From positions 262,501 to 326,500 of the forward strand of contig NC_015318.1 in NCBI RefSeq assembly GCF_000194135.1: DNA of 64,000 nt. The letters run 5' to 3'. The notes under the pieces were generated by a model. The model was not told the DNA's origin, did not search any database, and was given only the letters and a program-made list of their open reading frames with translations. The translations under genes and the position numbers were made by a program. This DNA is from Hippea maritima DSM 10411 (GTDB lineage: Bacteria; Campylobacterota_A; Desulfurellia; Desulfurellales; Hippeaceae). Positions 24,416 through 26,466 of this stretch are shown here, in pieces; the first letter of the stretch is position 1; every line of letters starts with the position of its first letter.

Positions 24416-24955
24416 TTAAATTATAGTTCTGTTTCTGCCGCTTTGCTTTGCGAGGTACATCTTTTTGTCTGAGTTATTAACGAGTTCTTCAAATGTTTCC
24501 GGGCAGTCCTCCATTGAGGATGCACCTATGCTGACCGTGCACCTTATTTCCATTCCGTCTACAAAAATTGGTGTTGCGGCGATGTGGTTTCTTATCCTTT
24601 CAGCCAATATGAAGGCGCTTTCCTTTGTTGTGTTCGGCAGGATGATGACGAACTCTTCACCGCCGTAGCGAATGGGTATATCCGATGATCTTATGTGGTT
24701 TTTTATCTCATGGGCCACGTGTTTTAACACCAGATCGCCGAGCTTGTGTCCGTATTTGTCGTTTATGTTTTTAAAGTGGTCTATGTCTATCATCAAAACG
24801 GATAGCGGGTGAGAGTAACGTTTTGTTTTCTTAAACTCTATTTCAGCTAATAGGTTCATGTACCGCCTGTTGAATAGACCTGTTAGGGGGTCCCTTACTG
24901 CTTCTTCGTGCAGTTGGATAATCTTATTTTTTTGTGCAATATTCCTTTCTTTCAG
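24416..24955 (-). CDS. GGDEF diguanylate cyclase domain, out of frame with the ODP sensor
   Basis: The open frame runs from 24955 down to 24416 and encodes a complete GGDEF domain: DPLTGLFNRRY (Asp codon at 24892-24890), MIDIDHFKNINDKYGH, the active-site RYGGEEF and VSIGAS. No RxxD inhibitory site is obvious. The first ATG (24859) lies after the first conserved motif, and no ATG, GTG or TTG precedes it in this frame, so independent translation would give a truncated domain. A +1 shift (or loss of one A in the A7 run at 24933-24927) joins it to the ODP sensor gene upstream. It would make c-di-GMP. Confidence 0.8.
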   Translation of the reverse strand: MKERNIAQKNKIIQLHEEAVRDPLTGLFNRRYMNLLAEIEFKKTKRYSHPLSVLMIDIDHFKNINDKYGHKLGDLVLKHVAHEIKNHIRSSDIPIRYGGEEFVIILPNTTKESAFILAERIRNHIAATPIFVDGMEIRCTVSIGASSMEDCPETFEELVNNSDKKMYLAKQSGRNRTII

Positions 24956-26156
24956 TTAAGATTGCCATTGAGATTGGTATTTCAAATTTAGATAGTATTT
25001 CCAAGTCCTTATAAACGTTAAAATCATCGGGATTGAAGATTATGAAGCATACGCCGTAAAACCTTCCATCTTTGTCTTTTATGGGGAATGTGTACGACGG
25101 ATCTTCTATACCAAAAATCGTATGGAGCTGTGAGGGTTTAAAGAATATGGCGCCGTTTTTTATGTAGCTTGAGGCTTCTATCATTTGTTTTAATTTATTT
25201 TCATCTTTTAGAGATGCGATTGCCGTTTTCTTTGAGCTTAGCTCTAAAATCCCTGTTTCCTCAATATCCATAACAAATGCTTTAATAGAGTCGATGTTGT
25301 AAAACTGTCTTAGGTTATCTAAGAATTTATCTATTATTTTGTAGAAGCGCTCTTGGTATGCTATGATTTGTATTATCTCTTCTAAGACGTCGTTCAATTT
25401 GGATAATTTAATGACATCCCGTGTATTTGTGAATTTTCCAAATAGACCACATTCCAGTTTTTTCATTTTCTCTATAATTGGCTTTATGAACTCTTTTTTT
25501 ATAATGGAACCGTGCTGAGGTGCAATTAGTTCTATATCGAATTTTTCTATATTCGATAAACCGTTTCTCAGTATTGAATTGCTTGGCATGTAGTGCTCAT
25601 GGAACGGCTTAAGTTTTTCAAAGTAATCTTCGGAGTTTTTTGCAAATAGTTCAAATTCTGGCGTGAATCCGCCAAATATGTCGCTTGAAAATAGAACCTT
25701 TGTTTCGGTGTCGTATGTACAGATGGCTCCGGGGAAATGCATGTAGGGGGTAAAGATGAACTTCAAAAGCCTATCTCCCGCCTTTAGCTTCCATCCATTT
25801 TCCTCTACTTCGTATAGCTTTGCATCCCAATCACAATGCTTGAGCAAAGCCCATGCGCGCCAATGCGTTATAATGTATCTTTCTGCTTTGCCTGTATCTT
25901 TTATCAGTTGGTCTATGCAGCCGATTATATCAGGGTCTTGGTGGTGGCAAATTAGGTATTTGATATCCTTTAGTTTTACGAGCTGTTCGATCTTTTTCTT
26001 TGTAATATCGTATGTTATGCGCGAACCGGGGTCTATCAGAATAGATTCATCCCCGTTTCTGATCAAATATACATGGCATTGAAATTGATCTTGTGGTATA
26101 ACAGCGCCAACCCAGAAGATCCCTTCTGCTATCTCTACAGGTTCGTTAAGATTCAT
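24924..26156 (-). CDS. ODP (oxygen-binding diiron, metallo-beta-lactamase-like) sensor protein
   Basis: 410 residues. The N-terminal 240 residues are a flavodiiron-type MBL domain with iron ligands visible: HHQDPD (in place of HxExDH), His in YMHFPGA, Asp in FSSDIFG and His in APQHGSI. There is no flavodoxin domain; residues about 250-400 look like a helical linker plus a GAF-like fold. Such ODP domains bind oxygen in chemoreceptors and other signalling proteins. The reading frame stops right after an A7 run, and a GGDEF domain continues in another frame, so the intact protein is probably an O2-responsive diguanylate cyclase. It is the distal part of the rplU operon. Confidence 0.8.
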   Translation of the reverse strand: MNLNEPVEIAEGIFWVGAVIPQDQFQCHVYLIRNGDESILIDPGSRITYDITKKKIEQLVKLKDIKYLICHHQDPDIIGCIDQLIKDTGKAERYIITHWRAWALLKHCDWDAKLYEVEENGWKLKAGDRLLKFIFTPYMHFPGAICTYDTETKVLFSSDIFGGFTPEFELFAKNSEDYFEKLKPFHEHYMPSNSILRNGLSNIEKFDIELIAPQHGSIIKKEFIKPIIEKMKKLECGLFGKFTNTRDVIKLSKLNDVLEEIIQIIAYQERFYKIIDKFLDNLRQFYNIDSIKAFVMDIEETGILELSSKKTAIASLKDENKLKQMIEASSYIKNGAIFFKPSQLHTIFGIEDPSYTFPIKDKDGRFYGVCFIIFNPDDFNVYKDLEILSKFEIPISMAILTERKEYCTKK

Positions 26157-26466
26157 CTTCCCTTCTTTTTTCCGTTTCTCTCCAGAGTGAGTCTAAGTCG
26201 TATTCTTTTCTTTTTTGTTCCGTAAACAGATGTATAACAACATCAAAACAATCTATCAGCGTCCATCCGCCATCTGCCGTTTCCTCAATATGATGGATGT
26301 CGATGCCGGATTTTTTTATCTCGTCAAATATCGCATAAACCTGCTTATTTGAACTTACCGTGCCTATAATGAAGAAATCAAATAGAGCCGACTTCATCCT
26401 TAGATCATAAACCGTTATATCCTCTACCTTTTTATCTTCCAAAATCTTCAGTAATTTTTCCTTCAC
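26146..26466 (-). CDS. rsfS: Ribosomal silencing factor RsfS
   Basis: 106 residues, Iojap/DUF143 family. It binds uL14 on the 50S subunit and blocks subunit joining under starvation. Typical features are DITVYDLR, FFIIGTVSS and ADGGWTLIDCFDVVIHLF. It starts at GTG, overlaps the nadD stop, and overlaps the ODP gene by 11 bases. nadD-rsfS is a widely kept pair. Confidence 0.95.
   Translation of the reverse strand: MKEKLLKILEDKKVEDITVYDLRMKSALFDFFIIGTVSSNKQVYAIFDEIKKSGIDIHHIEETADGGWTLIDCFDVVIHLFTEQKRKEYDLDSLWRETEKRREDES

Follow-up and report, generated by a model that had tools for sequence, protein, structure and literature searches.

The putative ODP-GAF-GGDEF sensor gene in the genome sequence of Hippea maritima DSM 10411 is most probably broken by a private one-base insertion in an A7 run

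Hippea maritima DSM 10411 is an anaerobic thermophilic sulphur reducer (PMC3156395). In a 64,000-nucleotide stretch of its genome (hereafter the window; positions 262501-326500 of the single 1,694,430-base contig), we found one gene at 24416-26156 on the minus strand with an ODP domain (PF19583), a GAF-like domain, and a GGDEF domain, whose reading frame is broken at an A7 run (24933-24927). Every relative has the gene whole, and we therefore hold with high confidence that the break is a private insertion of one A in the homopolymer run, representing either a fresh mutation or a residual sequence error, rather than an evolved switch. The consequence is a correction of the annotation: the locus is best described as a single ODP-GAF-GGDEF gene rather than as a switch or a pair of genes, and as a frameshift it means little beyond that.

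The 5′ part (24924-26156, minus strand) encodes 410 aa, comprising the ODP domain (MBL-fold di-iron; residues ~25-216), the GAF-like domain, and the first part of a linker helix. On the minus strand it ends with TGC ACA AAA AAA TAA (...EYC T K K *), in which the A7 run (24927-24933; T7 on the plus strand) is followed directly by the TAA stop (24924-24926). The 3′ part (24416-24922, minus strand) lies in the +1 frame and contains the linker helix and a complete GGDEF domain with RxxD-x5-GGEEF; this frame is free of stops through KIIQLHEEAVRDPLTGLFNRRY and GGEEF until it terminates at 24416. The first ATG, GTG, or TTG codon in it is the ATG at 24859, which is located 3′ of the DPLTGLFNRRY motif. 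A preliminary description made from the sequence had reported the end of the ODP frame at the A7 run and TAA, the open +1 frame, and the lack of a standard start codon before the first GGDEF motif, all of which are confirmed here. It had also stated that the loss of one A or the gain of two would fuse the frames, and the arithmetic agrees: A6 or A9 joins both frames into a product of 579 or 580 aa, A7 or A10 leads to a stop at once (410 or 411 aa), and A5, A8, or A11 leads to a stop about ten codons further (~420 aa). Another A7 run within this gene (25494-25500, minus strand) is in frame and harmless, and serves as an internal control. The gene is the last in a minus-strand run of obg-proB-proA-nadD-rsfS (the names obg, proB, proA, and nadD were assigned from their sequences) and faces a Sir2-type gene. 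The rsfS gene (26146-26466, minus strand) is immediately upstream and overlaps it by 11 bases. The order of the neighboring genes is the same in relatives.

The relatives identified by similarity are Hippea and other Desulfurellales. All 10 full-length relatives of the family have a single open frame, with uninterrupted stretches of 585-612 aa, and an eleventh, partial copy shows no break at the junction; both the A7 run and the frame shift are absent in these 11 relatives. In the DNA alignment with them, a single extra base is present in the window sequence only, exactly within the A7 run, where the nearest relatives have TGCAC-AAGCAAT or TGCAC-AAATAAT with at most three consecutive A's. The preliminary description had proposed a comparison with relatives to see whether the homologues are one frame and whether the A7 run is kept; the former is the case and the latter is not. 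It had also named a second place for an extra base, GAAAGAAAGG. Although the +1 reading ERNIAQKNKIIQ at this site seemed plausible at first, the relatives align across it without a gap, the sole gap being at the A7 run, and read ERKEYCT(S/N)NRIIQ instead; thus, the break is at the A7 run and not at GAAAGAAAGG. No other frame change was found by comparison with the relatives' open reading frames over 29 kb of the window, and no independent copy of the same species was present among the genomes searched. Beyond the family, Mariprofundus, two purple sulphur bacteria (Allochromatium and Rhabdochromatium), an Acidobacteriota MAG, and a further complete genome have ODP-x-GGDEF genes that are single open reading frames (L013, L038, L039, L040, L041, and L043). 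Because the relatives all have one frame and the extra base occurs in the window alone, sequence comparison indicates an ancestral fused gene that is split only in the H. maritima genome. These ODP-GGDEF relatives represent a widespread type of sensor-cyclase through which anaerobes and microaerophiles would link c-di-GMP to O2 (or NO or Fe).

According to Pfam, the ODP domain is complete (E 2.1e-63; profile positions 1-194 of 194), and so is the GGDEF domain (E 2.5e-42; positions 1-161), which has both GGEEF and RxxD but is out of frame with the start codon because of the break. The ODP part matches two solved oxygen-binding di-iron proteins, PDB 6qrq and 6qnm. In the alignment with 6qrq (E 1.3e-26), HQDPD, the H before G, the D of SSDI, and APQHG are all kept, in agreement with the earlier remark that the iron ligands are intact; we take the metal-binding role of these positions from flavodiiron proteins. 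The middle domain was not called in the Pfam search, but is GAF-like by fold, as had been proposed. The model of the full-length protein is poor (pLDDT 59), whereas the middle domain alone could be modelled usefully (AlphaFold mean pLDDT 72), with best Foldseek matches to GAF domains (E ~5e-4). Membership in the ODP family suggests a putative role of the 5′ part in sensing O2 or NO, and the motifs of the GGDEF part predict diguanylate cyclase activity. The ODP oxygen/iron sensors of the Treponema type (6qrq and 6qnm; Muok et al., 2019, cited in PMC7319448) have the same MBL-fold domain, and their metal-site positions are kept here; the Treponema-type ODP works with a chemoreceptor, whereas the ODP here is joined through a GAF-like domain to GGDEF. 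Fusions of ODPs to signalling domains are already described. The present case is a private frameshift of an ordinary kind, and the sensor protein it affects belongs to a type that is interesting but already known.

The preliminary description held that both halves look under selection, and this was supported by comparison with the nearest relative, L002. The GGDEF half has 72.2 synonymous and 16.8 non-synonymous differences, corresponding to a dN/dS of ~0.02, and the 5′ half has a similar ratio (~0.02); dS is near saturation in this comparison, such that the ratios are rough. The GGDEF half is under strong purifying selection. Its GGDEF HMM score of 169.2 bits, compared with 170.3 in an intact relative, shows no decay. 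For amino-acid changes, the GGDEF half has 7 on the window branch and 1 on the L002 branch, and the 5′ half has 11 and 9, respectively; the 7 versus 1 changes hint at a slight relaxation of the GGDEF half, but the contrast between halves is not significant (Fisher P 0.19). If selection on the GGDEF half had been absent over just a few per cent of its long branch, more changes would be expected. Given purifying selection and the absence of HMM decay, the break either arose very recently, does not exist in the actual DNA, or is bypassed. Rescue of the fusion in the cell would likewise leave the GGDEF half under unrelaxed selection, which counts against a frameshift or an error as the explanation.

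Errors of 454 sequencing concentrate in homopolymers. The H. maritima genome was sequenced to 30-fold with 454 and 1,213-fold with Illumina and polished, with a stated error rate of less than 1 in 100,000 and 46 reported pseudogenes (PMC3156395). This rate is compatible with up to ~17 errors genome-wide. In the GeneTack survey, singletons of this kind are interpreted as either sequencing errors or recent indels, and for validated ones the authors expect errors over true indels (PMC3711429). Our case resembles those singletons in that the break occurs in one genome, is validated by protein similarity, and has a homopolymer at the site, with no notable difference. Because of the deep Illumina polishing, we slightly favor a genuine fresh mutation in the sequenced strain, which is somewhat better than an even bet, and regard a residual sequence error as the less probable yet quite substantial possibility. 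Should the sequence be correct, replication slippage would have added one A to the run very recently, and the insertion would truncate the protein ahead of GGDEF, leaving a 410-aa sensor without its cyclase. Truncation would presumably abolish the function and remove one c-di-GMP input from a genome with ~22 GGDEF matches. If the consensus is wrong, the gene would simply be intact.

Among the three readings in the preliminary description, a fresh frameshift or a sequence error has stood up, with the extra A private, the relatives in one frame, and the GGDEF domain undecayed, while a transcriptional slippage switch has not. In such a switch, some mRNAs would carry A6 (or A9) and yield a fused O2-tuned cyclase. 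This reading is permitted by the frame arithmetic and by the selection that persists on the GGDEF half, and there are precedents: homopolymer frameshifts are rescued by slippage in Blochmannia and Buchnera (PMC3017870), and Thermus dnaX uses a 9-A run (PMC1088944). These systems are similar to ours in having an indel or stop beside an A-run and a conserved downstream frame, but their runs either are conserved or have about nine or more bases, whereas the run here is seven long and private, in a genome with many coding A7 runs. That none of the relatives has the run speaks against a function shaped by evolution. Slippage by RNA polymerase on A/T runs in E. coli and Buchnera proceeds overwhelmingly by insertion, mostly of one base, with deletions being rarer (PMC5574713); since the A8 frame is dead here, slippage would usually yield a dead-end product. 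No stimulatory structure was found at the junction, and the gene tolerates its other A7 run, both of which count against the switch. We consider such a switch very unlikely, and equally so a small output of O2-sensing diguanylate cyclase in H. maritima whose level is set by slippage, with a free ODP-GAF sensor as the main product.

The treatment of homopolymers in this genome also bears on that reading. The window contains 71 A/T runs of at least seven, and A7 is ordinary here. We counted coding runs in 264 kb, consisting of the window and ten sampled 20-kb stretches (L072-L081), and compared them with codon-preserving shuffles. Coding A7 runs are not avoided (133 observed vs 119 in shuffles), A8 runs are barely avoided, and runs of A9 or longer are strongly avoided (3 vs ~18). 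Avoidance of A/T runs starts at nine in many genomes (PMC1088944). Judged indirectly from this avoidance, A7 would not be long enough to be slippery in H. maritima. For coding T-runs in the same 264 kb, those of at least eight are likewise strongly avoided (7 observed vs ~23 in shuffles) and those of seven are not. The relatives have the same pattern of avoidance of coding A/T runs.

Other ways of bringing the two frames together, or of using them separately, appear even less probable. Reversible A6/A7 phase variation in the DNA draws on the fact that homopolymer indels are in principle reversible; however, a run of seven is on the short side for a contingency locus, such runs are common in the window, and the A7 run is not kept in relatives, which makes this reading highly improbable. 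At the lowest end we place both ribosomal frameshifting and reinitiation. A7 runs favor -1 ribosomal shifts in known cases, but a -1 shift here runs into a stop, and the fusion would require a +1 or -2 shift at AAA AAA TAA. The slippery-looking run with a stop codon directly 3′ and a purine-rich AAGAAAGGAA-like stretch upstream are in favor of such a shift, whereas after a +1 shift the last Lys codon would re-pair on AAU, and two foldings of the junction revealed no stimulatory or recoding structure and nothing unusual downstream (z -0.4 and -1.1). Programmed recoding is expected to have its site and direction conserved among homologues, and neither is conserved in the 11 relatives. Alternatively, the locus could be a two-gene operon in which the GGDEF part is translated separately by reinitiation near the TAA. 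Candidate non-standard starts are the ATT at 24940, with AAAGGAA upstream (duplex -5.9 kcal/mol), and the CTG at 24913. There is no ATG, GTG, or TTG 5′ of the first conserved motif, the ribosome-binding energy of the CTG is ordinary (-2.4; random median -2.2), that of the ATT is within the random range (5% quantile -7.9), and the arrangement would have arisen in this strain only.

Outside the window, a second gas-sensor cyclase gene has a break of another kind. This protoglobin (PF11563)-GGDEF gene (G000:C1:380620-381603, minus strand; L057 ~594-1604) contains one in-frame TAG (ATTCTTAAATAGATTGCG) shortly 5′ of RWGGDEF. The break is likely real because homopolymer errors do not produce base substitutions. 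No full-length counterpart was found in the 20 relatives searched. Two of the 22 GGDEF matches in the genome are thus broken, and this does not represent significant clustering given the reported pseudogene rate (P ~0.11). If the A7 mutation is real, two gas-sensor cyclases would be broken in the cultured type strain, which may reflect loss in the laboratory.
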